Below, piece after piece: positions 4,507 to 22,850 of a DNA stretch of 50,545 nt (its first letter is position 1; each line of letters starts with the position of its first letter). The notes under the pieces are model-generated. The model had not been told where the DNA came from and did not search any database. It worked only from the letters and a program-made list of their open reading frames with translations. Where the stretch lies: the NCBI GenBank assembly GCA_028284955.1, contig JANQQS010000119.1, forward strand, positions 1 to 50,545, written 5' to 3'. The DNA comes from Myxococcota bacterium (lineage in GTDB: Bacteria > Myxococcota_A > Polyangia > Polyangiales > Houyiibacteriaceae). Made by a program: the position numbers and the translations under genes.

Positions 4507-6879
4507 CTATTGTCGGCCATCGTGACGACGACGGCTCGCGCCGCCGGGAATCAGTGTCAGGTGAGGAACGGGGGCATAGGCCGCGATAGCGCCATTTTCC
4601 TCTGCGGCGTACACCCAGCTGCGTTCGTCGACCCGAATGAGGTCTGGCACGAGATCTGAGGTTGGAACGTTGCCCAGCGGAGAGCCGTCTTGGGGCCGAA
4701 CGACGCGAACCGAGCCTCCCGGTACAAACAGTCCTCCTCCTCGCAAGACCGGCTCTAGTTTTCTCGGCACCTCATCTGCGATTGGGTCCCCGAATGTGTG
4801 CTGCCATCGCATATTCCCGTTTGAGAGGCCGATCGCCGATACCGGTCCACCCGGCGCGTTGATGACGAGAAGATCATCGACTAGCAGTCCGCATCCGCCT
4901 AGCCCGAGCCCCGGATCGGGGATGGTCCAAACTCGGGTTCCCGTGCTCGGATCGATACCGTGCAGCGACCCTCCTCGCGCGTCGGTCGTCCCGACGACAA
5001 CCGTGTCACCTCCGTTGATCGGTGGGCATGCGGGTATTTGATCGAGGGAGCATTCGAATCGTAACGCTCCGCGATAGAGATCGACGCCGACGACCGTGGT
5101 CGACGATTCGGGGCTGGGACATGTGGCCACTACCGTGTCGTGACTGCATACCGGGGCAAAAGGAAACCGGCCGGGGCCAGAAAAACACCAGAGGTCTTCC
5201 CCGGTCGCCAAGTCAACCGCCCGAATCATCTCATTTCCTGTGGTCCACAGAAGAACTCGGCCGGATCGGGAAAACTGGGGGGTGCCAGTGCCGCCGTATT
5301 CGTATTGCCATCGCAGTTCTCCGTTGCGGAGATCGATTGCGACCAGTTGATTGTTTCCGGCCCCGAGCACCGCAACCGGTGGTGTGGAGCCTCCGCCGGG
5401 GCACGAAAACGCGACTGGTGGCCCGCCCGCTCGGGGGGCGATACGGCATGACGCAAAAGGCTCTCCGTCGCCAACGTCGCAAAGATCGACGTCTCCCTCT
5501 GGAGTCAAGCGAAGCAAAACGGAACCGGCCATGAGCGCGGACCCGCCTCCGCTTTCTCGCGACCACAGCAAACGTCCGTCGTTTCGTGATAGCGCCAGGG
5601 TGCGCGCCGGGGTGGAGAGCACGAGGCGATCCCCGCATAGAAACGTTGCGCTCGCGTCCAGTCCATCGATGTCGAGGCACCATCGTTGCTGAAAACGCAA
5701 CGCACGAGGAGTCGTGACGGCGTTTGTTGCTTCTTTCGTGCGTTCGGATTGATGCGGTGCACGAATGAAATCCGGGTCGTGATTGAGAAAGCTCGCCGCT
5801 GAGCGTTTTCGTTTTGCACGAATGGCTCGTCTCAGGTCCCGACATTCTTCCCGAAGAACCCGCACGCGCAGATTTCGCCCCTGGGCTCGATCAACGGAGA
5901 CGAGCGCCCGCAATAGCTCGGTTGCGGTGCGCAGTATGGGAAGAACTGCTTCTTCCAGCGTCAGTGCTGTTGCGGTGACGTATTCTGTGCCTCGACCGAG
6001 CGTGATGGTGGCTTCCTCGGTTCGGTCGACGCGCAATCCAATTTGAAAACTACCTAGGCGAAGCCGCACGTTGCTCGGGCGGTCATCTTGCCAGGCATCT
6101 ACCGCATGGCGGATGGCAGCCACCATGCGCTGAACCACCAACATAATGGGCCCCTTCGCAAGATGAATACGTCTGCCGCGAAGGAATGCCCAGAGTTCAC
6201 CCTCGAAAAGCAACGCGTGAACATCCGCGCGCACCGAGTGGGCGGGGATGTTCGCCGTGCCCGAGTGAATCGATGCTTCGTAGCCGAACGCCAAAGGAAT
6301 CATCTTTGAGGGTGCTTCAAACGATCCGCCGCGCTTGGCGACTGGTTCTTCGGTTTCATGAGCGGAGCAATCGCTGCGCTTCATGTCTTCGCGAGTGAGA
6401 TTGTTGTGTCTCAATTTGGGCAGTGCGCCCTGCGCCCGCTCCGCCATACGGGCGGCCGAATGTCGAAGGTGCGGGTCGGTTTGAAACCTTGCGTTGTCGA
6501 GAAGCGATTGGGCACAGGCGTTCAAGAGTGGTGCGAGTGCGGTGCGTCGGTTCAGTTGGTGTACCGCGGGGGTGCTCGAGGTCGTGTATACGCTCACCCA
6601 AACTTCGTCACCTCGGCGAATCAGCGCAAATTCAAGAGGGGTCGCCCCGAGGGGCAACAAGATTTTCTTTCGCAGCCGGCGGGCCAAAGAGATCACCCCG
6701 GCGCAAAGATCCATCAGCGGCGGTAGATCGACATCGTCAAGATCGGCCACCAGCAACCGTCTGAGCGACACGCTCGGCATCGGTTGCGGACAGGGTAGCG
6801 ACGCAATATTTGGTCCTTGGGCCGACGAGCTGTTGGAGGGCGTGGCAGACGGGCGGTTGGTGTGTAGTTCCATTCTCAC
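4507..6879 (-). CDS. PQQ-like beta-propeller protein with novel N-terminal region
   Basis: This is a 790-residue protein without a signal peptide or membrane segment. About residues 400-780 carry successive beta-propeller blades of the PQQ/BamB type, seen as repeated units such as AVDLATGEDLWCFSG, GIDPSTGTRVWTI and GLSNGNMRWQHTF. The first 390 residues do not match a family I can name; they appear to contain two related halves, LLPLGATPLEFALIRRGDE and MIPLAFGYEASIHSG. The start is GTG at 6879; an ATG two codons later is equally plausible. It lies about 100 bases upstream of the receiver-DUF4388 gene on the same strand, so they may be co-transcribed. The propeller probably binds a protein or ligand rather than acting as a quinoprotein dehydrogenase, because a periplasmic signal is lacking. 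The function is unknown. Confidence 0.8.
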   Translation of the reverse strand: MRMELHTNRPSATPSNSSSAQGPNIASLPCPQPMPSVSLRRLLVADLDDVDLPPLMDLCAGVISLARRLRKKILLPLGATPLEFALIRRGDEVWVSVYTTSSTPAVHQLNRRTALAPLLNACAQSLLDNARFQTDPHLRHSAARMAERAQGALPKLRHNNLTREDMKRSDCSAHETEEPVAKRGGSFEAPSKMIPLAFGYEASIHSGTANIPAHSVRADVHALLFEGELWAFLRGRRIHLAKGPIMLVVQRMVAAIRHAVDAWQDDRPSNVRLRLGSFQIGLRVDRTEEATITLGRGTEYVTATALTLEEAVLPILRTATELLRALVSVDRAQGRNLRVRVLREECRDLRRAIRAKRKRSAASFLNHDPDFIRAPHQSERTKEATNAVTTPRALRFQQRWCLDIDGLDASATFLCGDRLVLSTPARTLALSRNDGRLLWSRESGGGSALMAGSVLLRLTPEGDVDLCDVGDGEPFASCRIAPRAGGPPVAFSCPGGGSTPPVAVLGAGNNQLVAIDLRNGELRWQYEYGGTGTPQFSRSGRVLLWTTGNEMIRAVDLATGEDLWCFSGPGRFPFAPVCSHDTVVATCPSPESSTTVVGVDLYRGALRFECSLDQIPACPPINGGDTVVVGTTDARGGSLHGIDPSTGTRVWTIPDPGLGLGGCGLLVDDLLVINAPGGPVSAIGLSNGNMRWQHTFGDPIADEVPRKLEPVLRGGGLFVPGGSVRVVRPQDGSPLGNVPTSDLVPDLIRVDERSWVYAAEENGAIAAYAPVPHLTLIPGGASRRRHDGRQ

Positions 6880-6999
6880 CGTGGTGCATCGAGATGGTGT
6901 GGGGTCGTGAGACGAAGTGTTCGAACCGTAGAGAAATGGTAGAAAAGCCGGTCGGCTTGATCCAAATATTCGTTGCGGGTTTGCGCATCAGCCGGAGAA

Positions 7000-7422
7000 A
7001 TGAGCCACTTGGAGCGCGTGGAACAGCTTGTCGCGGTTTCGGCCGTCATTTTTCGGTCCGGATCAATATTGGCGATGCGTCGATCGGCGGTTCGGGATGC
7101 AGGTGCAGGGCTATGGGAGGTTGTCTCTGGCCGAGTTCATGTCCAAGAGTGTCCCTTTCAGGCCGTGAAGCGCGAGGTTCAAGAAGAAACGGGTTTGCAT
7201 GTCCAGTTCGAAGAACGTCCCGTGGATGTGTACGCAGCATTTCGTGGCGCGGCTCCGATGGTCGTGATCGTGTATCGAGCAGACTACATATCGGGATGCG
7301 TCTCCATCTCGTCCGAGCACGACCGCTACGACTGGCTCACCCCGAAAGAGTTTGCGGCTCGAACATCACTCGCACGACTTGCGGAGGCGGTACGTCGAGC
7401 GGCTGCCGCGACCACGAGTTGA
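7000..7422 (+). CDS. Nudix hydrolase
   Basis: The protein hydrolyses a nucleoside-diphosphate-linked substrate, which cannot be named from sequence. A full Nudix box is visible: G, five residues, E, seven residues, then REVQEETGL. It supplies the Mg-binding glutamates. The protein is 140 residues, typical for a stand-alone Nudix enzyme. The ATG at 7000 follows GGAG very closely (two-base spacing); a TTG at 6973 is an alternative. It is divergent from the PQQ-propeller gene, and the roughly 120 bases between them must hold both promoters. Its 3' end overlaps the convergent glycosyltransferase gene by 97 bases. Confidence 0.9.
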   Translation: MSHLERVEQLVAVSAVIFRSGSILAMRRSAVRDAGAGLWEVVSGRVHVQECPFQAVKREVQEETGLHVQFEERPVDVYAAFRGAAPMVVIVYRADYISGCVSISSEHDRYDWLTPKEFAARTSLARLAEAVRRAAAATTS

Positions 7423-8594
7423 AAACGTCGGTAGAACAGACCAGGCTCGTGTTCGCGAGCGACATACGTTCGCCCTGCGGCTCCTATCTCTTGCGCACGA
7501 TCCGGTTGGTAAAATAGCTCAGCGACAGCACTGGCCAGCGTCCGAAGGTCGTGGTCGAACACGACCTTTGCCGCATGTGCCATAGAGAGTTCCGAAGTTG
7601 CATGCTTCGTGACCACGATGGGCACTCCCCGCGACATCGCGTCGAGCATTTTTATTGGTACCCCACCGGGCGCTCGCCGGGGGACCATTGCGACATCGGT
7701 GGCGGCGTGGATCGAGCGCCGATCGGATTCATTCGATAGACCGGTGATGCGCGTGAGATGCGTAATTCGGCGGGCTTCGATCGCCTCGAGAAGTGGTTTT
7801 GGTGATGACGCGGTCGCGACGAGGAGCCGCGCATCGGGCGTTTCATTGGCGAGCACAACGAACGAATCGAGAACCTCGTCGAAGCCCTGGTAGCCGTCTA
7901 GATTGCCGGCATAGAGAAGCACCCGATGATGATCGTGGTAGCCAAATCGGGCCCGAGCCTCGATGCGTTCCGATGCGTGGATTGGGGGCGGAATGGTCCA
8001 AGGAATCGGCAGATATGCGATCGACGGCACTGCGCCGCGCGTGTTTTGCTGGAGTAGTTCGTGAAGTTTGCGGCAGAGAAGGGGCGATATGCCGGCGATC
8101 GTCGCGCCGGTACATGAAAGTCGATCGAGCAGCCTTCCTGCATCGGCCAACCATCGCGGCTGAGTCGAGACGTAGGTAGGAAGTTCCGTTTCGAAGAGCG
8201 TATGCGCGACGTACACGCGCGGCGAAATACCAGCCAACCGAGCAACGATAGCGGATTCGACGTTGTGCGCGACGCACAACGCATCGCGCCGCCGCATTAG
8301 AAGTCTTCGGCTTTGGACGACCATCGACACATCGAGTGCGACCTTTCCAAACGATGGCCCCGAGCGCAGAGAGCGGACTCGAGGGATGTCTGGAAGCCGG
8401 TGGACCGGATGAACTGCGGATATGGTTCGGTCGCCGTAGGCGTACGCGAGAAGTTCGGCGTGTGCTCCTCGATCGTGAAGCGTTCGAAGCATTTGATGAA
8501 TCAGCGCCTGCGTACCCTGAGGGCTCGGGTAGGGCATGCACGCGAGGTGGATAGTGGGCGGAGCGAGTGAACGATTCTCGCGGGCTGGGTTCAC
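7326..8594 (-). CDS. GT-B glycosyltransferase, group 1 (GT4-like)
   Basis: This is a 422-residue glycosyltransferase of the GT-B fold. The N-terminal acceptor domain starts with PTIHLACMPYPSPQGTQ and the C-terminal donor domain contains VLLYAGNLDGYQGFDEVL and MVPRRAPGGVPIKMLDAMSRGVPIV, the usual nucleotide-sugar binding part. The start is GTG and overlaps the stop of the upstream phosphatase gene by four bases (8591-8594), so the two are translationally coupled. It is the last gene of the flotillin operon. The likely role is transfer of a sugar to a lipid, glycan or protein at the inner face of the membrane; the acceptor cannot be told. Its end overlaps the Nudix gene in the opposite direction. 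Confidence 0.85.
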   Translation of the reverse strand: MNPARENRSLAPPTIHLACMPYPSPQGTQALIHQMLRTLHDRGAHAELLAYAYGDRTISAVHPVHRLPDIPRVRSLRSGPSFGKVALDVSMVVQSRRLLMRRRDALCVAHNVESAIVARLAGISPRVYVAHTLFETELPTYVSTQPRWLADAGRLLDRLSCTGATIAGISPLLCRKLHELLQQNTRGAVPSIAYLPIPWTIPPPIHASERIEARARFGYHDHHRVLLYAGNLDGYQGFDEVLDSFVVLANETPDARLLVATASSPKPLLEAIEARRITHLTRITGLSNESDRRSIHAATDVAMVPRRAPGGVPIKMLDAMSRGVPIVVTKHATSELSMAHAAKVVFDHDLRTLASAVAELFYQPDRAQEIGAAGRTYVAREHEPGLFYRRFQLVVAAAARRTASASRASDVRAANSFGVSQS

Positions 8595-10363
8595 GAATCC
8601 ACGTATCCGAGAGATCGCAACCGAGCCTCGAGGACGGCTTCAATGCCTGCGCCCAGTGGGGGTGGAGAGGCGATTCCAGAGCTTCCAATAGAGCTATCCA
8701 CGCTCGGGAGTGAATGTAGAGCGCGTTCGTTTTGGTGCAGCGCCTCCCAAAGGATTCGACCTGAGAAATCGGAAGGAACGCCGACATTCATGCGCGCGAG
8801 GATTGTCGCCGTCGCGTCGGCAATGTGTGCTTGCACCTTCGTTGCAGGGATGACTTGGGGTCCGTGCATGATCAACACTCCGTGGCTTCGATGGCTGCCA
8901 GGCAGGCTGCGACCTTTTCGGCCTAAATACTCGCGAGGCTGAAGGACGCTCCAGACCGGTCCGTTCGGGTCGCGCCCGCTGGGCATCAGGTTGTATGAAT
9001 ATCCGTCATCGAGATTTAGATCGAGCAGCAAGTCGGGTGCTCGCTCGATCCACGGGCCATCGAATAGCTCTTCGCGTGGCACAGCGCGTCGAACCACGCG
9101 GGCTTGTGTCCAAGGGTCGCGGAGGTTTTCAAGAACGTCGATCACCTTCTGGCGTGTGCGTTCGAGATCGGTCGGGTCGACGGTTCCACGCGGTTCTCGT
9201 CCCCGAAGGTTCAGATGGACCGAAGGAAAGTAGTTAAGCTCTTCGCTGAACGCGACGGTATTCGTCATGTCGATTGCACCGAAGCGCACGCGCGATTCGA
9301 GCCAGTTGGGAAGAAAGGATCGATGGGCGCGAAACAAAAAATCGCGAAGCGCAGGGGAGAGCATCGTCAGCGCCTGATCTCGTGCCCATAACGACAAAGA
9401 GCCAACTGTTGAGAACGCTTGAAGGCCCGCGCCGATGTGCCGCGGCGCGCTCGGGTCAGCGTGCGAGACATTGCCTTTGAACTGCAAAAGACCATGTTCT
9501 GCGAGTGCGCGATTGAGGTACACGATTTTTCGAGACGACCCTCCAGACCCATGGTCGCTTGCGATGGTGAGCTCAGCGTCAGGCGCATAGCGCTGAATCT
9601 CGCCGACTGCTTCGTCGAGCGCCCGATAGACTTGCTCGAGACCGGAGCTGCCTTTGTTCTGATCCGCGAAGCGTGGGGCATCGCTGGGCCGGCGCGGGGA
9701 GTCGGCGTCGAAGAGGCTCCACAAATAGTGCGATGCGGTGTCGCTTTCTCCGAAGTATGCCGCGAATAGATCCCAAGGTCGCGATTTCAGAAGCCACAAA
9801 CTCTGTTCGACCCGGCGCGAGATTCGTCTGCACAGCGCGTTTGGAAGCTCGCTGTGCCACCCTTCTTCTTCTGCGGAAAACTCGTTGACGTCGTCGAATC
9901 GCGGTACGCCAAAACGTTCGACCCAGCGGGCGTACAGTGACGGCGGCCAAACGAAAGAATCGGAAGCTTCAGACGCGACCGGCGCATCCCAGCCGCTGAC
10001 CATGACGCCGTGCCGGAGTCGTTCCGGCGGCCAGGTTCCCGGAAAACCCAACGAACAACACGAAAGGCCCAGCTCATCCAGACGAGCCATCATCGTTGGA
10101 ACCTCTCGAACTGTGCCGCCCGTGAAACGAACCCCGTACCCGTGGCGGGTAGTGAAATCAAAAACGCCATGGCGCCCAGGGTCAACACCGGTCAGAAACG
10201 TTGTCCAGTTCGGCAGTGTGGCGGGAGGTTGTACGCTTTCCAGTCGAGCGAAGGCCCCGTCCTCCATGAGCCGATGAAAAGTTGGGAGCGATTCGTTTCC
10301 CATGCGCAAGATAAGGTCGAGGTCGAGACCGTCGAGGCCAAGGATGAGATTGCGCGTGCCCAT
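8591..10363 (-). CDS. alkaline phosphatase superfamily phosphodiesterase/phosphohydrolase (590 aa)
   Basis: The protein belongs to the type I phosphodiesterase/nucleotide pyrophosphatase group. Visible metal-site and catalytic elements are D11 (LGLDGLD), candidate nucleophile T49 in PPATLPNWTTFLTG followed by DPGRHG, and the SDHGSGG metal motif. No signal peptide or membrane segment is seen, so it would act in the cytoplasm or bound to a membrane protein. The gene starts 32 bases after the stop of the second phosphatase and overlaps the glycosyltransferase start. The enzyme may cleave phosphodiesters of a lipid-linked intermediate or transfer a phospho-group; family membership is firm but the substrate is unknown. 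Confidence 0.85.
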   Translation of the reverse strand: MGTRNLILGLDGLDLDLILRMGNESLPTFHRLMEDGAFARLESVQPPATLPNWTTFLTGVDPGRHGVFDFTTRHGYGVRFTGGTVREVPTMMARLDELGLSCCSLGFPGTWPPERLRHGVMVSGWDAPVASEASDSFVWPPSLYARWVERFGVPRFDDVNEFSAEEEGWHSELPNALCRRISRRVEQSLWLLKSRPWDLFAAYFGESDTASHYLWSLFDADSPRRPSDAPRFADQNKGSSGLEQVYRALDEAVGEIQRYAPDAELTIASDHGSGGSSRKIVYLNRALAEHGLLQFKGNVSHADPSAPRHIGAGLQAFSTVGSLSLWARDQALTMLSPALRDFLFRAHRSFLPNWLESRVRFGAIDMTNTVAFSEELNYFPSVHLNLRGREPRGTVDPTDLERTRQKVIDVLENLRDPWTQARVVRRAVPREELFDGPWIERAPDLLLDLNLDDGYSYNLMPSGRDPNGPVWSVLQPREYLGRKGRSLPGSHRSHGVLIMHGPQVIPATKVQAHIADATATILARMNVGVPSDFSGRILWEALHQNERALHSLPSVDSSIGSSGIASPPPLGAGIEAVLEARLRSLGYVDS

Positions 10364-10395
10364 TCTGGCGACGTTAGCGGTTTGCTATCGGCGGT

Positions 10396-11829
10396 TCAAT
10401 GGCGGTCCGCGGAGAGAGAAACGAGCGATCGACCCAGTAGGTCGTTTGGCGCTTCGGTCTCCATTAACTCCAGCACGGTGCGCGCAACGTCGTAGATGCG
10501 TGCGCCGTTCACGCGTCCCTCGCGCGGGGCGCCCCTACCGGACAGGATCCACAGACCATCCCAGTCGTGGTTGCACTCGTCGTAATTGCCTGGCCCGCTT
10601 CGATCGTCGTGCGCGATAACCCACTGACCGTGTCCGAGCGTGCCAGCGGCTCGATATGCTAGGTCGTCGAAGTACACCAAAAGGTCAGGGGCGAACCCTC
10701 GCGTTGCCCGATACTCACGCTCGGGTTCATCGATGCGAACGGGAATCGGTGTTCCGGCAGAGTCTACCAAGCCAAGGAGTTCTTCTTTGAGGCGCGCGCG
10801 CTCGTTCGCCCAGTCGGCCGGGGCCACGATGCCGTGGGGTTCGCGGCCTGCCACGTTGAGCCAAATGCGCGCGTAGTAGCCGCCTTCGCCCCAGGCCTTG
10901 GTCCGGGACCAATCCACCACGCCTTCGTGAATAGACGTTGAGTGCGGGAGGTTAGGGTCTGCGGCCTGCGCATGCGTTTTGAGCCAACCGTGGTCACGCA
11001 GCCATTCGTTGATGCACACGCTACCGTGCAACGCTCGGGCTCCATGGTCGCTCACGATCATCACGGTCGTGTCTTCGTCGATCGATTCAAGCAGCGCTCC
11101 GATATTCTGATCGAGAAACCCGTAGAATTCTCGGCCGAGATGCTCGAAGCGATTGCCGCGGATGTATCGTGGATGTGCGGGATCAAACGCTGACCAAAAC
11201 GCGTGATGAAATCGGTCGGGCGCCATGTCTACGAACATCATGAAGTCGGGAATTTTTTGCTCCCAGACGTAGCGTGCGATGTTGAAATGCTGCGCGGTCA
11301 TCTTTTTGAGCGCGTCATAGATTCGCGGCTTGTCGCTTGCACGGAAATCGGTGACGTCGCGGATGTAGGGCCCGAATCGGTTCGTTAGTTCGTGCTCGAA
11401 GCTGGTGGGGAATGCCCACGGAAGAGTCAGGTCGGGGGTGAGAAAGCAGGAGACCAAATGACCGCGCACAGGCGTTGGTGGCCAGGTCAGGGGGACGAAT
11501 AGGGAGGCCACCGATTTGCCCGCATCGCTGAGCCAATCCCAAAGGCGTTTTTCTTGAACCCATTCCGATGTGGCTACGCGAGGCTTGTATTCGGTAGGCC
11601 GGTTGGGAAGGCGATTTCGAAACCCGTAGAGACCGAGCTCGCCGGGGTCCCGCCCGGAGACCATGCAAGTCCACGCGGGAACGGTGATCGGTGGTGCAGA
11701 CGATCGAAGCAAGCCAAAGCTGCCTGATTCCATGAGTCGCGACGTATTCGGCATGACATCGCGAAATCGATCGAACACAAGGTGCGGCGACGCGCAGTCG
11801 AGCCCAATGACCAAAACCCGGCGCGGCAT
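10396..11829 (-). CDS. alkaline phosphatase superfamily phosphodiesterase/phosphohydrolase (477 aa)
   Basis: This is a second member of the same superfamily as its downstream neighbour. It shows D11 (VIGLDCASP), candidate nucleophile T49 (PPITVPAWTCMVSGRDPG) and VSDHGARALHG. The two proteins are diverged but keep the same spacing between first metal ligand and nucleophile. The ATG at 11829 is chosen because it opens directly into the conserved core and lies 19 bases after the flotillin stop; the longer frame to 11937 would run into that gene. AGGAG is present but at a long spacing of about 12 bases. No export signal is seen. It is part of the flotillin operon, with an unknown phosphoester as substrate. 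Confidence 0.87.
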   Translation of the reverse strand: MPRRVLVIGLDCASPHLVFDRFRDVMPNTSRLMESGSFGLLRSSAPPITVPAWTCMVSGRDPGELGLYGFRNRLPNRPTEYKPRVATSEWVQEKRLWDWLSDAGKSVASLFVPLTWPPTPVRGHLVSCFLTPDLTLPWAFPTSFEHELTNRFGPYIRDVTDFRASDKPRIYDALKKMTAQHFNIARYVWEQKIPDFMMFVDMAPDRFHHAFWSAFDPAHPRYIRGNRFEHLGREFYGFLDQNIGALLESIDEDTTVMIVSDHGARALHGSVCINEWLRDHGWLKTHAQAADPNLPHSTSIHEGVVDWSRTKAWGEGGYYARIWLNVAGREPHGIVAPADWANERARLKEELLGLVDSAGTPIPVRIDEPEREYRATRGFAPDLLVYFDDLAYRAAGTLGHGQWVIAHDDRSGPGNYDECNHDWDGLWILSGRGAPREGRVNGARIYDVARTVLELMETEAPNDLLGRSLVSLSADRH

Positions 11830-11848
11830 ACTGCGGGATGACTCCTGG

Positions 11849-13159
11849 CTATTCGTTTCCGAACGTACCTGGAGGCACCGATGTCGGACGGCGTGGTCCT
11901 GCGGTGCGAGATGTACCCACCCGATCTCGGAACACACCCGCTACATCCACGCCCGTTGCGGCTTTGATGTGTTCGTTGGTTTTGATGAGGTCCGAAGCGA
12001 GGTTGTTCCCCCCGTTTGGGTGGCCGGCCCCGTTTTTCCCAATCACCGTCAAGCGATCCACTTTGAGTTTGCCAATCGTTGCGCTGACTTCTTCCACGAT
12101 GGGCACGAGTTTCTGCATGAGAAGAACGTCCCGCCCGTTGGTGCCGCTGCCTCGGTATTGCGTGGCGAGATCGGTGAGCACCTGCGCAGTGGCGCGGCCT
12201 TGTTCGATGATTTTCATCGCGTCGGCGCGTGCTTCCGCGATGGCCTGCTGTTTCTTCGCTTCCGCAGGTTGAACGATGTCGGCCTGCAGTTTGAGGCGAA
12301 CTTGCTCGATACGAGCGTTTTGCATTTCGATTTCCGCGGTCGACTGAGCAATGGCGGCTTGCACCGTCGCGCGCTGCTCCGCGATCATGGCTCCGCGTTT
12401 GGTTTGCGCATCGGCGATGCGACGTTCGTTTTCTTTTTTGGCGACCGCAATGGCTGCTTCCAGCTTCGCCACTTCACCCTGCATAAAGTTTTTCCATTTT
12501 ACTTCCGCCGCCGCGGCTTGGGCGTCGGCTTCGGCGACCTGTGCGTTGCGCCGAATATGTGCGCTTCGCATGCGCCCAATCGCGTCCAGATAGCCGACTT
12601 CGTCGCTCACGTTTTGGATTTTGAGCGTGTCGAGAATCAACCCGATGCGATTGAGGTCGTGCTCGGCTTCCTCAGTGAGCTTTTGCGCGAATGCCTCTTT
12701 GTCTTGGTTGACTTGTTCGGGGGTGAGGGTGGCGAGCACCCCGCGAAGGTTTCCTTCGAGCGTCTCGCGGCCGAGTCGCATGATTTCTTCGCGGGTGCGT
12801 CCCAGAAATCGTTCGAGCGCGTGGTGGATGAGCGGAAGCTCGCCGGGGACTTTGATGTTGGCGACCCCCTGCACGGTCAGCGGAATGCCGCCTTTCGAAT
12901 ATGCGTTTTTGACCGTGACCTCGATGATCATGTTGGTGAGATCCATGCGGTCTACGGTCTCGATGAGTGGATAGCGGAACGCCCGGCCGCCTTTGACGAT
13001 GCGATACCCGACCACGCGACCCGCTTGGCGATGTTTGCGGCCGCTGAACACCAATACTTCGCTCGGTTGGCATACGTAGAGGAGGTTTTTGACGATCATC
13101 ACGAGCGCGAGAAATGCGATGAACGCGATGAGCGCCAAGGCGAGGATGGCGGCGAACAT
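11849..13159 (-). CDS. SPFH/flotillin-like membrane protein B
   Basis: The 436-residue protein has an N-terminal membrane segment (residues 2-28), an SPFH/band 7 domain (about 30-200, with VFSGRKHRQAG and EVVGY-like features) and a long Ala/Glu-rich coiled coil (about 200-330). A flexible C-terminus follows. Flotillins oligomerise in membrane microdomains and scaffold other proteins. It lies one base downstream of the first flotillin gene and has a strong AAAGGAG eight bases before the ATG. It shares segments such as LDTLKIQNVSDE with flotillin A, so the pair arose by duplication and probably forms a hetero-oligomer. Confidence 0.9.
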   Translation of the reverse strand: MFAAILALALIAFIAFLALVMIVKNLLYVCQPSEVLVFSGRKHRQAGRVVGYRIVKGGRAFRYPLIETVDRMDLTNMIIEVTVKNAYSKGGIPLTVQGVANIKVPGELPLIHHALERFLGRTREEIMRLGRETLEGNLRGVLATLTPEQVNQDKEAFAQKLTEEAEHDLNRIGLILDTLKIQNVSDEVGYLDAIGRMRSAHIRRNAQVAEADAQAAAAEVKWKNFMQGEVAKLEAAIAVAKKENERRIADAQTKRGAMIAEQRATVQAAIAQSTAEIEMQNARIEQVRLKLQADIVQPAEAKKQQAIAEARADAMKIIEQGRATAQVLTDLATQYRGSGTNGRDVLLMQKLVPIVEEVSATIGKLKVDRLTVIGKNGAGHPNGGNNLASDLIKTNEHIKAATGVDVAGVFRDRVGTSRTAGPRRPTSVPPGTFGNE

Positions 13160-13160
13160 A

Positions 13161-14540
13161 TTACGCGCTCCTTTCTGCAGCGGTGGAGGAGACCTGGCCG
13201 TTCAGAATTCCTCCGATGTCGACTCCGGTGGTTTCCCCGAGCGCAGACATCACCGCAGAAACCATTTGCGGGTAGGTCGCGGCGTAGCTCGCGAGGCCTT
13301 TGCCGTCTCCCTGGTCCAACACGCTAACCTCTCCGACGTCTACTTCATCGAGGTTCGACACCACCGTATGAATGATCTCTTCGAGGTGCTGAATGATATA
13401 AATCTCGCGTGCCTGAGGACCCATCGCTCGCCACGCGTCGCTCATTTGGCGCAGCACTTCCACCACCGCGGCGCCGTTTTCGGCGGTTGGTGCGGCCTCG
13501 CCCACCGCGAGCAGGGCCTGCGCTTCGCGATGTGTTTCTGCAGGAATGACCACATCGGCTTGTAGGCGCTTGTTTTCAAGATCGGCTCTCAATGCTTGCA
13601 GCTCTTTTTCAGCCGTCGCTCGAGCCGTCTTGGCCGCGGCTTCCGCTTCTCGTTCCACCGATTGGGCTTCGCCGTCGAGTTCGGCCTGGACCTGACGTAG
13701 CTCGTTTTGCTTCTGCAGAACGGCTGTTTCACATGCCGCCTTGGCCACATCGGCGCGGCGGCTGGCGTCGGCTTGTGCCCGCGTGATCTCCTGTTTGGCT
13801 TCGTTTTCCGCGTTTTCCGCGTCTCGAAGCACCGCCGCGATACGCGGCCGGCCGAGAGAATCGAGGTAGCCAGTTTCATCGCTGACGTTTTGGATCTTCA
13901 GCGTGTCGAGCTGCAACCCCAGCTTGTGGAGGTCGTCTTCCGCGGTTTCGACGAGTTTTTCGGCGAACTTGAGACGGTCTTCATTGACTTCCTCGGGGGT
14001 CATCGTAGCGATGACTTCGCGTACGGAGCCCTCCAAAGTTTGTTGGGCAACCTTTTGAACTTCGACCAGCGATCGACCGAGAAATCGTTCCACGGCGTTG
14101 CGAATATGGGCTTGGTCGCTGTGAATCTTCACGTTGGCAATGGCGTGAATCTGGAGCGGGATATTGCCTGCCGAATAGGCGTTTGGGACCAAGATATCGA
14201 TGGGCAAGAGGCGCATGTCGATCCGGTCCACCCGTTCGAGCACGGGAATTCGCCAGCCGCGGCGCCCTTGCTGATAGAGACGATTGGGGAGCACCGTTCC
14301 GTTCGGTGCGGTGTATTTTCGGCCGCTCAAAACGAGGGCTTCGTTGGGCCGCGCGATAAATAGAAGCGAGCGCGCCACCGCGATGAACATCAAAATCCCC
14401 ACCGCGACCCCAAGGCCGCTGAATACCGTGAGCCACAGGGGATCTTCGAGCACGCGGGTGAGTATGTCGGGGCCTAGTTGCGCAGGAATGGCGGGGTCTT
14501 CGGCCGCTGGACCTCCGTATTCCGGAAACGGTTCTCTCAT
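13161..14540 (-). CDS. SPFH/flotillin-like membrane protein A
   Basis: This 459-residue protein has a short acidic N-terminus, a membrane segment at about residues 37-63, an SPFH domain with VLSGRKYTAPNG and NVKIHSDQAHIRNAVERFLGRS, an Ala/Glu/Arg coiled coil and a C-terminal region ending near TGVDIGGILNG. GGGGAG lies eight bases before the ATG, and the start overlaps the stop of the NfeD-like gene as ATGA. NfeD-type proteins are classical operon partners of flotillins. The role is probably a membrane scaffold; its client proteins may be the phosphatases and glycosyltransferase encoded downstream, which is inference. Confidence 0.9.
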   Translation of the reverse strand: MREPFPEYGGPAAEDPAIPAQLGPDILTRVLEDPLWLTVFSGLGVAVGILMFIAVARSLLFIARPNEALVLSGRKYTAPNGTVLPNRLYQQGRRGWRIPVLERVDRIDMRLLPIDILVPNAYSAGNIPLQIHAIANVKIHSDQAHIRNAVERFLGRSLVEVQKVAQQTLEGSVREVIATMTPEEVNEDRLKFAEKLVETAEDDLHKLGLQLDTLKIQNVSDETGYLDSLGRPRIAAVLRDAENAENEAKQEITRAQADASRRADVAKAACETAVLQKQNELRQVQAELDGEAQSVEREAEAAAKTARATAEKELQALRADLENKRLQADVVIPAETHREAQALLAVGEAAPTAENGAAVVEVLRQMSDAWRAMGPQAREIYIIQHLEEIIHTVVSNLDEVDVGEVSVLDQGDGKGLASYAATYPQMVSAVMSALGETTGVDIGGILNGQVSSTAAERSA

Positions 14541-15157
14541 GACGCGTTCTCCCCATTGACGCGGGCCACCCGGGCGGTGGTTCCCTCCATCTCAATAATC
14601 ATGGCTTCTTCGTGCGCACCGAGGGTTTCATCTGCCTTGGCGAGCACGTCGACCGTTTGTCCCTTGAGCTGCAGTCGTACCTTGCCTGTCCCGCGGAGTT
14701 CAATGGGAACCACGACCCGAACGGTTTTTCCGATGTAGTCCCGACTGTCTGCGGCGGCGGCCGTTTCGTCGCGCGAGAGAAACCGAATGACCCGAGCTGC
14801 GGTGAAGCCGCTTACCGCGCCCATCGCGATTGCGAGACTCAGGGTGAGCCACCCCTGCTCAACCAACCCGAGCCCATCCAGGGTGACCCCGGTGAGGCCA
14901 AAAAAAGCGAGAAAAAACGTCCAAAACCGCATCGTGCGGAGGGGCCAGAGAAAAAAATCGCCGCCCGCGTCGCCGATGTCGAGCGACTTGTCGACATCGG
15001 CCCAATCCCCATCCGCCAGCTCCCCGTCTGCGAGGTCTCCGTCCGCGAGGTCTCCGCCAGCGTCTGCCTCACCGACGTCCGATCCATCGTCTTGTCCGCC
15101 CAATAAGATCGACGCGCCCAGCAGTACGCCGCCGACAATCAGACCAAACAAGTACAT
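14537..15157 (-). CDS. NfeD/YqiJ-like membrane protein with C-terminal OB-fold
   Basis: The 206-residue protein has an N-terminal membrane segment (MYLFGLIVGGVLLGASILL), an acidic loop with four GDLAD-like repeats at about residues 35-55, two further membrane segments (about 77-95 and 103-127) and a soluble C-terminal OB-fold-like part with YIGKTVRVVVPIELRG. The layout is that of the YqiJ/NfeD partners of flotillins. The start is uncertain: the ATG at 15157 has no clear Shine-Dalgarno sequence, and a GTG at 15169 preceded by GCGGA is possible. The frame extended to 15433 lies antisense in the kinase gene and is rejected. It is the first gene of a six-gene operon and is divergent from the kinase. 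Confidence 0.8.
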   Translation of the reverse strand: MYLFGLIVGGVLLGASILLGGQDDGSDVGEADAGGDLADGDLADGELADGDWADVDKSLDIGDAGGDFFLWPLRTMRFWTFFLAFFGLTGVTLDGLGLVEQGWLTLSLAIAMGAVSGFTAARVIRFLSRDETAAAADSRDYIGKTVRVVVPIELRGTGKVRLQLKGQTVDVLAKADETLGAHEEAMIIEMEGTTARVARVNGENAS

Positions 15158-15283
15158 GTAGATCAGCACGAGTAAATCCGCCCGGGCCGAGCATAACGCC
15201 TCGGTCGCCTCGGGCGCACTCTTTCTGCGGAGAAACCTTCGTTTTTTCGGGCGGTTTCCGTGTATGCTGAACGCCAGGGGGAG

Positions 15284-17596
15284 ATGGAAACACCGTCCTG
15301 GATACCCGTTCCGGTTCGGGCCTTGGTGCTTGAGCAAGACGACGAAACGCGCGCCCAGATCGTGCGAGCGCTTAAGGAACGCGGTCACGACGTGCGTGAG
15401 TTTCGCGACGGGAAGAGCGCGCTCGAAGCGCATCTACAGCGTCCGTTTCGGATCCTGCTGCTGGAATGGCGAGCCCTGGGGATGGACGGGCTTGAAGTTA
15501 CGCGCCGGGTCCGTGCTTCGCCCGGCGGCGACGTGGTGAGCATTTTGGTGCTCATGGACAGCGAAGGGTATCACTCCCTCGACAAGATTCTCGACGCGGG
15601 TGCGAACGACTACCTCACCAAGCCGCTCGATATGGGACGGCTTCCTCGCCGGATTCTGGTGGCCGAACGGGTGACTGCGGATCGCTTGCGACGTAAAGAA
15701 GCGGAAGCGAAGCTGCGGCGAAGCGAGGCCGACCTTACCGCGCTCATCGAGAACACCAATGATGCGGTGTGGTCGGTGGACGTGCGATTTCGCATCATTA
15801 CCACCAACTCGGTCGCGAGAAATCTCGCGTACATGCTTTTTGGTGTTGAAGTCGCGCCGGGGCTAGATGTGATTCAGGCGCTGCCCGAACCGAGGCGTGC
15901 TCGCGTGCGGGCGACCTACGAGCGCGCGTTTGGCGGACGCCATTTCACGCGATCCTGGCGCATTGTCACCCAGGGCGCCGAGCTTCATTTGGAAGCCTCG
16001 TTCAACCCAATTCGCAATGCGGATGGCTCGGTACGTGGCGTGTCGGTATTTGCTCGCAATGTTAGCGATCGGCTCCAAACGGAAGAAGCGTTGCGGCGTT
16101 CTCAGCGTGATTTTCGCCAGCTGATCGAGGCCGCCCCTGATGGGGTCGTCATCCTTCGGGATAGGCGACTGGTGTACGTCAATCAAACGTTTGCACACAT
16201 GGTGGGTCGCGACCCAGACGAGCTGGTAGGGCATCGGCTCACAGACTTTTTTCACCCCGACGACCGAGGGATGGTGCTGATGAGCGACTGGCGGCGGAAC
16301 GACTCCGTGCCTCCCCGTATCGAGCTTCGGGCGCTCCAGCCTGAGAGGAAAGCCATGGTGGTCGAAGCGCTTCCCGGCGCGGGCATCGATTTCGATGGCG
16401 TTCCTGCGCAGGTGGTGTCGATTCGCGACATCACCGACCGGAAGAAAATCGAGGCGCAGCTCGTGATGACCGATCGATTGGCGTCGATGGGTACGTTGGC
16501 GGCGGGCGTCGCCCACGAGATCAACAATCCCTTGGGCTATCTTTCGGCGAACTTGGAGTTTCTTGAAGAAAACGTGGCCGACCTTGGAGAGACGATTGGC
16601 CACGGAGAGCGGGGAGAGTTGACGGAAGCGCTTCGGGAAGCCCGGCAAGGAGCCAACCAAGTACGCCGTATCGTTTCGGATCTGAAACAGTTTTCTCGCG
16701 TCGATGATGAACAGCTTGGTCCCATCGATGTGCGTGCGGTTCTCGAGAGCGCCATTCAAATGACCGCCAACGAGCTTCGCCATCGTGCCCGGCTGATCCG
16801 CGATATCCAAGAAGTGCCACTGGCGCACGCCAACGCGGGGCGACTGTCACAGGTTCTTGTCAACTTGCTTACCAACGCAGCCCAAGCACTTGACGACAAG
16901 AGTTTCGAAACCAACGCGGTGACTGTGCGTGTTGTGCCGTGCTCCATGGGTGTTCGGGTTGAGGTCGAAGACAATGGACCGGGCATTTCCGAAGATGTAC
17001 GGTCGCGGATGTTCGATCCCTTTTTTACCACCAAGGAAGTAGGAGAGGGCACAGGCCTTGGGCTTTCGATTTGCCACAGTATCGTGACCGGATTCGGTGG
17101 GTCGATACGGGTGGATAGCGAAGTAGGCCGCGGGACCATTGTGCGCGTGGAACTACTCTCCGACCGTGCGGTAGCGCTGCCGGTGCAAGAACGTACCACG
17201 ACACCGATGGTTCACGCCGATCGTCTGCCCGGACGCATCTTGGTGATCGATGACGAGCCGCTGGTGGGCCAATCGTTCCGGCGCGCGCTTGCTGCACACG
17301 ATGTAGTGGTTACAGAGAGCGGGAGGGAAGCGCTAGGCATGCTTCAAGAGCAAGAGTTCGATGTCGTATTTTGCGATCTCATGATGCCGGAAGTCAGCGG
17401 AATGGATTTCTTCGAAACGCTTCGGTCAGACCAACCGGAGCTATGCGAACGGGTGGTGTTCATGACGGGGGGTGCGTTCACGCCGCGGGCTCAGCTGTTT
17501 GTGGAGACGGTCGACAACGTTACGCTCACGAAGCCTTTTGAAATGGATTCGGTGCGTCGATTGGTGCAGAACAAGCTGCAAAAATCAGATTTGTAG
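15284..17596 (+). CDS. hybrid sensor histidine kinase: receiver-PAS-PAS-HisKA-HATPase-receiver
   Basis: The domains in order are a receiver (residues 10-125), two PAS domains (about 145-265 and 275-395), HisKA with H411 in [11 protein letters not shown], HATPase_c with the N box ([10 protein letters not shown]), G1 (VEDNGPGI), F (FDPFFTTKE) and G2 (GEGTGLGLS) motifs, and a C-terminal receiver with [11 protein letters not shown]. The C-terminal receiver keeps its aspartate. In the N-terminal receiver the phosphoacceptor position is glutamate ([12 protein letters not shown], codon 15464-15466), so it probably cannot be phosphorylated. No membrane segments are present; it is a cytoplasmic sensor. 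The ATG has AGGGGGAG directly in front of it; a GTG at 15260 is the alternative. It is divergent from the flotillin operon, so it may control it, but this is inference. Confidence 0.92.
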
Positions 17597-17772: not shown

Positions 17773-18762
17773 CTACTCTAGATGCGGCTCTATCCGGACG
17801 CCGGGGCCGCCGACCGTGGCGTCGAGCACTGCAAAGCCGGCATGGGCGCAGCGATCCTCGAAACGCCGAGCGCGATTCGCGTCGGTAAAAAAACCGAGCG
17901 CCACATCGCCGCCGCCGGCCCCGGACGGCTTGGCCGCGCCTTGTTCTTCTTGAGCCAACGAGCGGACTTTGGAAAGGCGTTCTTCAACGATTGGCGCTCC
18001 GCTCTCCCGCCCCAACGCAGCCATCGCTTCTCCATATTGATCAGCGCACGACAACACGCGTTCGGCGTTGCCGTCCGAGTACGCCGCGACGAACTCCTGG
18101 GCTGATTCGGTCAGCGCGGCCATCCGTTCGGTGTAGCGCGTCGGGTCGCTTTGTCCCCACGCCCGAACCTGGCGCACTAAGTTGCTCGTGCGCGCTTCTT
18201 GGCCTGTCCACACCACGCGGACAATCAGGCCTTTGGGCCATGGGAGGCGTTTTGCGTCGAAGGTGTCCGTGCCCGTTCGACGAAAGCTCACTACGCCACC
18301 GAGCGCGCTCGCGGCGACGTCGGCGCCGCTGCCTTCCGGGGCTACCGCGCGGTGTCCGCGCATGGCCACGTCGAGAACCCGGGCCGAGACGTCCGGTTGT
18401 TCAAGGTCGTGACCGTGCCACGCGAATACCGCGGCCGAACAGGCCGCCGCTCCGGCCGCGGAGGAGCCTACGCCGAGTTTGCGATCGCCATGGCGCAGCG
18501 ACGCTACGTCGAGGAGGATATCCCTCGGAACCGTGCCGCAGTGCGTTTCCGCCAGCGCTCGCGTTTGCGCGGCCTCGGGCGCTTTGGACAGGGGGCGCAG
18601 CGTCTCCGGCGCGCGGCTGCGGTTGGTCTCAAAAAACAAAGCGCGCGCGCGGGTCTGGAGCGCGCCAACGAGGGCTGGTGCGCCTTCGAGCACGGCGTAT
18701 TCCCCCGCGATCATGATCTTCCCGGGCGCAGACGCGCCAGCGATGAAGGGTTCGTGTGTCAT
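17773..18762 (-). CDS. phosphomevalonate kinase (GHMP family)
   Basis: The enzyme phosphorylates 5-phosphomevalonate to 5-diphosphomevalonate. It has the GHMP N-terminal SAPGKIMIAGEYAVLEG, the ATP-binding LGVGSSAAGAAA and the C-terminal KPSGAGGGDVALGF motifs. It is 329 residues from the ATG at 18762, a usual bacterial length. The ATG overlaps the stop of the decarboxylase gene (ATGA), which decides the start against the longer frame to 19119. It is the third gene of the mevalonate kinase - decarboxylase - phosphomevalonate kinase operon. Among GHMP kinases the phosphomevalonate assignment rests on the N-terminal motif and operon context, and is strong. Confidence 0.9.
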   Translation of the reverse strand: MTHEPFIAGASAPGKIMIAGEYAVLEGAPALVGALQTRARALFFETNRSRAPETLRPLSKAPEAAQTRALAETHCGTVPRDILLDVASLRHGDRKLGVGSSAAGAAACSAAVFAWHGHDLEQPDVSARVLDVAMRGHRAVAPEGSGADVAASALGGVVSFRRTGTDTFDAKRLPWPKGLIVRVVWTGQEARTSNLVRQVRAWGQSDPTRYTERMAALTESAQEFVAAYSDGNAERVLSCADQYGEAMAALGRESGAPIVEERLSKVRSLAQEEQGAAKPSGAGGGDVALGFFTDANRARRFEDRCAHAGFAVLDATVGGPGVRIEPHLE

Positions 18763-19748
18763 GCGCGCTCGATTTCGATGCCCGGCCCGGGCGTTGCCAC
18801 CATGGTGTGCAAGACGCCAGGGGCTTCTTTGAGCGCTTGCTCGACCAACGGCGCTTGATCCCGAACGCAGAGCGCTTTGACGTGAGGCCCTGCGTCCATC
18901 GTGGCCCAGACGGAAATGCCTTCGCTGCGGAGGCGTTGGATCACCCGCAGCGCTGCGAGGGTGGGCGGTTGCCAATAGAGAATGCTGGGCAGCGACGACA
19001 TCGCGCAGGCGTGAAAGCAGTACGTGCTCTGCTCCATGGCAGCCCCCAGCTTGTCGAGGTCGCGTTCGGCAAGCCCGGCGCGCACCTGGCGATTCAGTTC
19101 CGGGGCTTGCTCGACCCATTGCGCGTAGAGCGGCGACGTCTGTCGCGAACGCTCCATGCCTTCAGTGGAGCCCACCGCTTTCGGCCCTTGTGCGGTCACC
19201 GCGACCACGAGGGCCACATCCCAGTGCGTGCGAGAGTGTAGCGGTTTGGCGGCGAGCGTATCGTCGCCCGGCGCGCCGGCTGGCAACTCGACAAACCCTT
19301 CATACACCGAGCGCGCCGCCGAGGCGCTGGATCGCCGGGCCAGACGACTAAGGAGCGCAGAATCGTAGTCCACGCCGGCCGCGGCGCAGGCGGCTCCGGC
19401 GAGCGCGGCGAACCCTGACGCACTCGATGCGAGGCCGGCTGCGGTCGGAAAGTCGTTTCGCGTATCCACCTCCGCGCGGGCATCGATCTGGGCGAGCGCG
19501 CGCACGCGATCGAGCAACTCGCAGACCCGCACCGCTTCACGCGCTGAGGCGACGCGATCGTCCAGTCGAACCTGGTCTTCCTTCAGCGAACCATCGAACC
19601 GAACCGAAGTCGTGGTCACGAGACCGCTCAGCGTCATCGAAATGCTGGGTACGGCGGGCAGGTTGTGCTCGATATCGCTCTTTCCCCAGTATTTTGAAAG
19701 CGCGATGTTGGAACAGGCGCGCGCGACGGCGCGATTTGGCGTGGTCAT
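18759..19748 (-). CDS. mvaD: diphosphomevalonate decarboxylase
   Basis: This GHMP-family enzyme makes isopentenyl diphosphate from 5-diphosphomevalonate using ATP. Diagnostic segments are NIALSKYWGK near residue 15, NDFPTAAGLASSASG in the ATP loop and the C-terminal TMDAGPHVK that matches the family DAGPN-type motif. It has 329 residues. GGAGG lies eight bases before the ATG at 19748, and the start overlaps the mevalonate kinase stop by four bases; the frame extended to 19985 is rejected on that basis. It is coupled at both ends to its pathway neighbours. Confidence 0.95.
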   Translation of the reverse strand: MTTPNRAVARACSNIALSKYWGKSDIEHNLPAVPSISMTLSGLVTTTSVRFDGSLKEDQVRLDDRVASAREAVRVCELLDRVRALAQIDARAEVDTRNDFPTAAGLASSASGFAALAGAACAAAGVDYDSALLSRLARRSSASAARSVYEGFVELPAGAPGDDTLAAKPLHSRTHWDVALVVAVTAQGPKAVGSTEGMERSRQTSPLYAQWVEQAPELNRQVRAGLAERDLDKLGAAMEQSTYCFHACAMSSLPSILYWQPPTLAALRVIQRLRSEGISVWATMDAGPHVKALCVRDQAPLVEQALKEAPGVLHTMVATPGPGIEIERA

Positions 19749-20773
19749 GAAGGGACCCTCCGGCCTGATGAGAGGCTGTCCGGCGGGCTGCCGTCTTGTG
19801 CGCGGCGGTCGTCGGCGGCTGGAGCTCCTCCGATTTCGACCACGAATGCTTGTTTGCCTTGGGCCTCGACAGCGTCTCGGACGGCCTCGGCGCTCGTTTG
19901 ATCGACCAGCGCGATCATGCACCCGCCGCCGCCTGACCCGGTCAGCTTTGCGCCGAATGCACCTGCGGTTCGAGCCGCTTCGCACATGCGTTCGAGGGTT
20001 GGCGTCGAAAGCAAGAGTGAGCTCAGCAGAGCGTGGTTCAGATCCAAAAGCTGTCCGAGCGCCAGCGTGTCCCCCGCGAGTACGGCGAGACGGCCGTTCT
20101 GAACCAACGACGCCATGCCGTCGAAGACTTGATCGATTCGCGCAGGCTCTTTCTGATGCAACCGAGCGACCTGGTCGACCATGGTTTTTGTGGATGCAGA
20201 TTCACCGCTATCTCCGATCACCAGCGTGAATCGAGGCGCGCCCCGCAGCGGCTCGGGCGCGCTGCCCTTTCGAAAGAGAGCCAAGCCGCCACAGGCCGCC
20301 ATCGTGTTGTCGAGCCCTGACGGGTTGCCGTGAAACACGCGTTCCCACGCCATGCACGCTTCGCCGCGCTCTTCTGCGGATCGCTCGATACCAAGCGCAT
20401 GATCCACCGCGCCCAGTACTGCGACGCCGATCGCCGCGGAGCAACCGAGCCCTGCGCCAGCGGGCAGCGCCACCTCGGCGCGAACGAGCAATCGAGGTCG
20501 GTCGGCGGCGTAGCTTGCCAAAATCGCATGAAACGCCTGCCCAAGCTCCGGTCCGTCCGCCGTCGCGTGAAGCCTCAGGCCCCACTGCGGCACCTCAATC
20601 GCATCCGCCTCTGCCCGATCAGCGGTCGCAACCACGCCCCGGTCAAGCCCCGCAGCCAACGCCGGCCGGCCGTACACGACTCCGTGCTCGCCCAGCAGAA
20701 TGACTTTTCCGCGACCGAGAGCATGTCTGGTCGAGGCTTGTTTCAGCGGCCGGAGATGAACATCAGACGCCAT
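19745..20773 (-). CDS. mvk: mevalonate kinase (GHMP family)
   Basis: The enzyme phosphorylates mevalonate and opens the lower pathway. The N-terminal GRGKVILLGEHGVVYG is the mevalonate kinase signature; the ATP loop PAGAGLGCSAAIG, the FHGNPSGLDNTM segment that carries the catalytic aspartate, and the C-terminal AKLTGSGGGGCMIAL are all present. It has 342 residues. It is the first gene of the three-gene operon and is divergent from a lipoprotein gene. No clear Shine-Dalgarno sequence is seen before the ATG, though the start matches the family's N-terminus. Confidence 0.94.
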   Translation of the reverse strand: MASDVHLRPLKQASTRHALGRGKVILLGEHGVVYGRPALAAGLDRGVVATADRAEADAIEVPQWGLRLHATADGPELGQAFHAILASYAADRPRLLVRAEVALPAGAGLGCSAAIGVAVLGAVDHALGIERSAEERGEACMAWERVFHGNPSGLDNTMAACGGLALFRKGSAPEPLRGAPRFTLVIGDSGESASTKTMVDQVARLHQKEPARIDQVFDGMASLVQNGRLAVLAGDTLALGQLLDLNHALLSSLLLSTPTLERMCEAARTAGAFGAKLTGSGGGGCMIALVDQTSAEAVRDAVEAQGKQAFVVEIGGAPAADDRRAQDGSPPDSLSSGRRVPS

Positions 20774-20873
20774 TGCAACAGGGGTGTAGACCGGAGCGGA
20801 TGCGGTTTCAACTCGTGCGGCGTCTGCTTGCGTTGACGGCAGTTCTAGATAACGACGCGCGCTGGCCAGACGA

Positions 20874-21737
20874 ATGCTTAACGCCTCGCTGCTTCATCAG
20901 AGGAAACTTCGAGATGATCGCGCCGCTCGCGAGCGTCGACTCGGAGGGAGTCGCGTCACCGCGCTGCTGGTCGCTTCTCTGGTCGCTGCCTTGGGCCCCA
21001 GCGCCGGATGTGCGGCGAGTGTCGGCGACAGCGAGCGCGCCGCTAGCCAGGTGAACACCGAAAAAGCTGCACCCGCGATTCCAATTATTGTTTCGGTCGG
21101 CGTCGCCGCCTGCTTGGAACAAGAGTGGTGCCGCGGGCTGGTCATTTCGGCGCTGGTGGTGCTTGGAAAGGGCATCGCGGGGGCTAGGGCTGGTTTGGTT
21201 CGCGCGGTGTCGAACTGGGACCTGCTGAACGACAAAGAGAAACAAGACACCGCGAATGCGATCGAGGGCATTCTGCCCGCTCCAGCCGCGCCGGATGACT
21301 ATGACCCGACGGACGATTTGGAGGACCAGTATCCCGGGTCGTCCGACCTGGGCAGCTGGCCCGAAGACGAGGCGGATCAAGTTGGGCTCACGTCATCGGA
21401 TGGGCCGAGACTGTACAATCACCTACGCATCTCGATGCTGAACGCTCTCGTCGTATTGCGTGTTTGCAAAGGGACGAACGACGAAGCCTACAACGCGATG
21501 CACGACTCGCTTAGGTCTCTGTGGGGGAGTGCGTGGTTTGTGGGGGAGCCTCCACGCAACATCGCTGAGAGGGTCACAAGAATCTTCGGAGAGCAAGCCG
21601 AGAATCTGAAGTTCTGCAGCTTTGTGCGCTCTCTTCTGGAAGAACTGCTCTGCCGGCTCAGGGACATCATGGCGGCTGCTTTCGCAACCACGGGGGGTAC
21701 GGTGCAGATTATCGAAGACTGGGCTACCTGCGACTAG
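20874..21737 (+). CDS. predicted lipoprotein or secreted protein of unknown function
   Basis: I do not recognise this 287-residue protein. A basic N-terminus is followed by a hydrophobic stretch (TALLVASLVAALGPSAG) and C46, so it has a signal peptide and perhaps an atypical lipobox. A second hydrophobic region lies at residues 68-105, then an acidic D/E-rich segment at 135-170 and a helical C-terminus with several cysteines. The start is uncertain because no ribosome site is seen. The stop codon shares the palindrome CTAG with the convergent polyprenyl synthase stop. It sits between two isoprenoid genes but nothing in it points to that pathway. Confidence 0.6.
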   Translation: MLNASLLHQRKLRDDRAARERRLGGSRVTALLVASLVAALGPSAGCAASVGDSERAASQVNTEKAAPAIPIIVSVGVAACLEQEWCRGLVISALVVLGKGIAGARAGLVRAVSNWDLLNDKEKQDTANAIEGILPAPAAPDDYDPTDDLEDQYPGSSDLGSWPEDEADQVGLTSSDGPRLYNHLRISMLNALVVLRVCKGTNDEAYNAMHDSLRSLWGSAWFVGEPPRNIAERVTRIFGEQAENLKFCSFVRSLLEELLCRLRDIMAAAFATTGGTVQIIEDWATCD

Positions 21738-22756: not shown

Positions 22757-22850
22757 TAAGGGCAGTTCCTACGCGGCCGCGCTTTCAAGAGCAAGGCGGC
22801 CGCGCGTTCCGGGTTGCGCGGACGCCTTTTTCGTAGTCTGTTCCAGCACC

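Follow-up and report, generated by a model that had tools for sequence, protein, structure and literature searches.

The two gene sets that meet at the locus described here can be set beside described systems. Operons of the NfeD-SPFH2-SPFH2 type have been reported, with two SPFH2 genes in cyanobacteria (PMC2636767), and two proteins of the alkaline phosphatase (AP) fold, Agl30 and Agl31 (VNG1056C/VNG1057C), sulfate the N-glycan of Halobacterium, as shown by deletion and heterologous expression (PMC11980604). We analysed a stretch of 50,545 nt from a Myxococcota bacterium of the Houyiibacteriaceae (GCA_028284955.1, contig JANQQS010000119.1, in an assembly of 223 contigs), called the window below. 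According to gene coordinates and Pfam matches, its minus strand reads NfeD-SPFH1-SPFH2-AP1-AP2-GT4 from 15157 down to 7326; an NfeD/YqiJ-like gene and two flotillin genes (SPFH1 and SPFH2) are trailed by two genes for AP-superfamily enzymes (AP1 and AP2) and one for a GT4 glycosyltransferase. Our analyses suggest, with moderate confidence, that this is a chance junction of two independently conserved modules, the second of which would modify a cell-surface glycan or glycolipid.

The original prediction had taken the six genes for a single system, in which flotillins and phosphatases work together, and had proposed a gene-neighbourhood search. The AP1 loci compared came from a GTDB-wide scan (55) and from stretches of relatives (20); with recognised duplicates removed they number about 68, and their flanks range from <1 kb to 10 kb in assemblies that are often fragmented. 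None of these loci carries an SPFH gene in its flanks. Of 57 relatives, 47 have AP1 and 28 gave a match to the SPFH2 query; where a relative has both sets, the two AP genes are on another contig than the two flotillin genes, except in the single-contig genome G043, where they lie about 6.6 Mb apart. Most genomes of the genus g2 carry AP1, usually with AP2, and have no SPFH2 match. The SPFH2-AP1 junction was not found in any relative searched, and the arrangement is unique to the host among the genomes that could be searched. Because the AP1 loci compared are free of SPFH genes and the two sets are unlinked in relatives, the idea of a flotillin-phosphatase system is unsupported beyond the host genome.

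The AP genes have conserved company of their own. AP2 follows AP1 in 23 loci, together with GT4 in 18 and with a PQQ/BamB-like gene as well in 16, and a PlsC-like acyltransferase is found upstream of AP1 in 18. A NUDIX homologue accompanies AP2 and GT4 in 10 loci, on the strand opposite to both. In the window the NUDIX gene runs antisense to GT4 and shares 97 bases with its 3' end; this antisense placement recurs in relatives. The same-strand cluster extends beyond the NUDIX gene to a PQQ/BamB-like gene; both had been overlooked in the original prediction. AP1-AP2-GT4-antisense NUDIX-PQQ is thus a second conserved Myxococcota module, apparently undescribed, that we call the AP module.

The histidine kinase gene and NfeD-SPFH1-SPFH2 form an ordinary bacterial flotillin operon, and the description of the latter three as a standard module proved sound. 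Both scaffold genes carry an SPFH/Band_7 domain and adjoin a gene with an NfeD-like C-terminal domain. NfeD-SPFH-SPFH stands as its own unit in relatives, where NfeD precedes SPFH1 in most and the SPFH2 relatives that follow SPFH1 are about 60-73% identical. Judging from their scores against the FloT equivalog NF058507 (162 and 160 bits, with a cut-off of 700), the SPFH proteins are flotillin-like and not FloT itself. A divergent histidine kinase also lies beside the flotillin module in L063, L066 and L070, with 50% identity in L070. A possible correspondence of the window kinase to those upstream of AP1 in other loci was considered and rejected, since it scored 264-278 bits to AP1-side kinases versus 676 bits in L070; the kinase of the flotillin side is the better fit.

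The order, strand and spacing of the six genes are as had been claimed. NfeD and SPFH1 overlap by 4 bases, gaps of 1, 19 and 32 bases separate SPFH1 from SPFH2, SPFH2 from AP1 and AP1 from AP2 respectively, and AP2 and GT4 again overlap by 4. An AGGAG sits 12 bases ahead of the AP1 ATG. The SPFH2-AP1 adjacency may give one transcript with the flotillin genes, a co-transcription that we infer; a scan of both strands over 7000-15600, weak for this phylum, picked up no sigma-70-like promoter. Such tight same-strand spacing, the AGGAG, and the position of cytoplasmic enzymes next to an inner-membrane scaffold would all suit a true functional unit, produced by a recent and selected operon fusion, in which flotillins bring AP1, AP2 and GT4 together in a membrane microdomain that makes a lipid-linked glycan or trims one. 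However, an arrangement seen in no other genome searched, the occurrence of AP1-AP2 in genomes without such flotillins, and the different, conserved neighbours of each module make this very unlikely.

In the host genome the homologues of these upstream neighbours lie elsewhere, the PlsC-like one on contig 165 amid unrelated genes and the BamD-like one on contig 82, and therefore the AP module appears to have been stripped of its upstream neighbours. The SPFH2-AP1 junction is probably a real and recent local rearrangement. GC content and GC content at third codon positions are even across it, which argues against an assembly chimera of two contigs. A chimera would be in keeping with a single genome in 223 contigs and with modules that stand apart elsewhere, but the join would have to fall exactly in the 19-base intergenic gap, leaving both genes complete and the AGGAG present, and we consider it highly improbable. 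Probably the flotillin module (histidine kinase and NfeD-SPFH1-SPFH2) and the AP module were joined in the host lineage, where the latter would have shed the genes upstream of it and come to start 19 bases after SPFH2. In relatives a PlsC-like acyltransferase normally heads the AP module, sometimes together with a histidine kinase, and the module probably encodes a conserved Myxococcota envelope pathway.

AP1 and AP2 both have the AP metal ligands and the Thr nucleophile intact: D11, T49, D205, H209, D261, H262 and H421 were invariant in 25 AP1 sequences, and D11, T49, D208, H212, D270, H271 and H491 in 15 AP2 sequences. In the predicted structure of AP1 (predicted local distance difference test, pLDDT, 91.9), residues 4-10 form the first core beta-strand and consequently leave no signal peptide; the AP2 N-terminus aligns as that of AP1 does. 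By the AP1 model and the AP2 alignment, then, both are predicted to be cytoplasmic, and the earlier identification of two AP-superfamily proteins without export signal, together with a GT4 enzyme, is confirmed. Solved nucleotide pyrophosphatase/phosphodiesterases (NPPs) are mostly secreted or membrane-anchored. The best structural matches of the AP1 model were the Xac NPP (2gsn_A; Z 30.2, root-mean-square deviation 3.2, 348 residues) and ENPP4 (Z 30.1), with ENPP6 and ENPP7 among the other matches and phosphonoacetate hydrolase also ranking high in the Foldseek list. The model thus identifies AP1 as an NPP-fold member of the NPP branch of the AP superfamily. AP2 joins that branch by its PF01663 match, metal ligands and Thr nucleophile, but its model was weak (mean pLDDT 58.5) and its NPP fold is putative. 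A PDB sequence search with AP1 and AP2 gave no match. In a phylogenetic tree, AP1 sequences from several phyla formed one supported group, separate from AP2.

From gene context and by analogy with Agl30/Agl31, modification of a glycan or glycolipid is the most likely role of AP1 and AP2, and the lipid-linked glycan proposed earlier is retained as a plausible class of substrate. As cytoplasmic two-metal, Thr-nucleophile enzymes of NPP type, they would work alongside GT4, adding a charged group to a lipid-linked glycan or glycolipid, or removing one, ahead of its export. Sulfation is the leading candidate for the chemistry, by the same analogy and from the position of AP1 homologues in other phyla, which are flanked by ATP sulfurylase (Sat) on one side and adenosine 5'-phosphosulfate (APS) kinase (CysC) on the other. 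This placement, checked with Pfam, was found in bacteria that include Chloroflexota, Zipacnadia and WS1, and the order Sat-AP1-CysC recurs in several phyla (L107, L109, L110, L111, L114, L116, L121, L136, L137). In L107 a TauE-type exporter and a second AP protein come next. Of 69 loci, 15 have a Sat, CysC or CysC-like gene no more than 2.5 kb from AP1, versus none of 20 flotillin control loci. Glycan genes are also found beside AP1: an O-antigen polymerase, GNVR and GT4 in L121, a priming transferase in L137, and an O-antigen ligase, GT2 and flippase in L135. Our literature searches found no account of the AP1-AP2-GT4 module or of the Sat-AP1-CysC order, and nothing on COG3379 with a glycosyltransferase or on ATP sulfurylase with the AP superfamily.

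A short C-terminal tail links AP2 to some of the sulfate genes. AP2 of the window ends in RLRSLGYVDS (8591-8626), of which R581-L-R-x-L-G-Y587 is invariant in the 15 AP2 sequences, and the C-terminal tail of every full-length AP2 protein is RLRxLGY or a near variant, RMRALGY in one case. Most APS-kinase-family neighbours of AP1 outside the AP1-AP2 module carry a tail of the same type; the tail-bearing loci are L095, L097, L103, L107, L109, L110, L111, L125 and L136. It is also found near AP1 on a few unrelated small proteins (one of them in L097), on an ABC ATPase in L097 and on a sulfatase in L131, and on none of 243 proteins in flotillin loci. Our guess is that it is a docking element; no mention of 'RLRALGY' was found in the literature. 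Beside AP1 there are also APS-kinase-like or similar-sized proteins with an LGY tail and no evident P-loop (L097:11422-11931, L131:11424-11861, L132:11449-11934), which are possible non-catalytic partners.

How far the sulfate link extends to the window can be weighed against other roles for the enzymes. In its widest form, AP1 and its partners would be widespread, undescribed cytoplasmic glycan sulfotransferases of NPP fold, or sulfation partners, fed by the adjacent Sat and CysC; the shared tail would serve to dock either APS kinase or AP2 in a joint complex, and the Myxococcota module would draw 3'-phosphoadenosine 5'-phosphosulfate (PAPS) from the general pool. We hold this to be a tentative proposal, more doubtful than not. 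The host genome has CysC and also encodes PAPS_reduct-family proteins, and a supply of PAPS is likely from these genes. The host CysC itself has no tail, and its neighbours appeared ordinary by eye, with no sulfotransferase-like gene noted. Presence of CysC and of AP1 are associated among the 57 relatives (Fisher p 0.003), a result of little weight given that the AP1-less genomes come from only three families. Several observations weigh against the interpretation that we favour. The junction is known from one assembled contig of a 223-contig genome; there is no sulfate gene near the AP module, in the window or in AP2-bearing relatives; the host CysC is on another contig, and no Sat of the PF01747 type was found in that genome. 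Furthermore, a Thr nucleophile on an NPP fold is at least as much in keeping with phosphate-ester chemistry as with sulfate, and Agl30/Agl31 have sulfatase-type relatives, their likeness to AP1/AP2 being drawn from fold and gene setting, not from sequence.

The Thr nucleophile, as in NPP-type phosphodiesterases, the PlsC gene upstream of AP1 and the choline-lipid enzymes ENPP6 and ENPP7 among the structural matches would all be expected if AP1 and AP2 transferred or cleaved the phospho-headgroups of a lipid, either a phospholipid or a glycolipid, in whose synthesis the acyltransferase and GT4 take part, with no tie to sulfate. This is possible although doubtful, as it leaves Sat and CysC beside AP1 homologues unexplained. 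Conversely, the Sat-AP1-CysC order and a fold whose members cleave nucleotides could mean that AP1 is housekeeping for sulfate activation, for example clearing the by-product 3'-phosphoadenosine 5'-phosphate or another adenine nucleotide, with AP2 a diverged partner and the glycan link secondary. We think this unlikely, given that AP1 in Myxococcota is tied to AP2, GT4 and PlsC and not to sulfate genes, and that some AP1 loci are exopolysaccharide clusters. Chance junction of a flotillin module and a glycan- or glycolipid-modifying AP module remains our preferred explanation.

Features of the two modules in the window, with the evidence for each assignment
Feature	Positions	Strand	Evidence
Beta-propeller protein (PQQ/BamB-like) at the conserved end of the AP module	4507-6879	-	PF13360 8.8e-26
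NUDIX hydrolase, antisense between GT4 and PQQ	6973-7422	+	PF00293 7e-14
GT4 glycosyltransferase	7326-8594	-	PF13692 4e-14
AP2, AP-superfamily enzyme	8591-10363	-	PF01663 (Phosphodiest) 2e-31
AP1, AP-superfamily enzyme, NPP fold	10396-11829	-	PF01663 (Phosphodiest) 6.6e-47
Flotillin/AP module junction, 19 bases	11830-11848	-	sequence
SPFH2 flotillin	11849-13159	-	PF01145 (Band_7) 2.6e-23
SPFH1 flotillin	13161-14540	-	PF01145 (Band_7) 2.2e-20; PDB match flotillin-1 1.6e-29
NfeD/YqiJ-like partner	14537-15157	-	PF01957 1.4e-7
Hybrid histidine kinase, divergent from the flotillin module	15260-17596	+	domains

Close to the AP module, at the start of the window, there is an IS110-like transposase open reading frame (9-1460). 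Beyond the histidine kinase, a mevalonate pathway cluster (17773-23903) was recognised from translations only, with GHMP kinases, diphosphomevalonate-decarboxylase-like genes, a polyprenyl synthase and a type 2 isopentenyl diphosphate isomerase.

These results remove a false lead, a single odd adjacency hinting that flotillins organise a phosphatase pathway. In its place stands a conserved Myxococcota module that is apparently undescribed, along with a connection across phyla that ties NPP-fold enzymes to sulfate activation and to glycan genes. Should AP1 homologues prove to sulfate glycans, many proteins annotated as 'alkaline phosphatase family' would need renaming, and one could predict sulfated bacterial glycans from genomes.

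Compared with described systems, the flotillin part of the locus resembles YuaF/YuaG, YqiJ/YqiK and Synechococcus Syc1604/1607/1608, which likewise place flotillin-type SPFH genes after an NfeD-like gene, with two SPFH genes in the Synechococcus case (PMC2636767); it differs from the NfeD2-SPFH2 operons in that an AP-GT module, unrelated to the flotillins, starts 19 bases after the second of them. AP1 has in common with the Xac NPP and ENPP4 the PF01663 family, the two-metal site with Thr nucleophile and the fold, but it is predicted to be cytoplasmic and is only 13-16% identical to them. The AP1 homologues of the Sat-AP1-CysC operons of Chloroflexota, Zipacnadia and WS1 are about 40-44% identical over their length to AP1 of the window, whose module holds AP2 and GT4 where those operons hold Sat and CysC. 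Agl30/Agl31 are AP-fold proteins encoded in a glycosylation gene cluster, and one of them is cytosolic (PMC11980604). The enzymes of the window are likewise of the AP superfamily, without export signal and clustered with a GT4 gene, and sulfation is a candidate chemistry for them.

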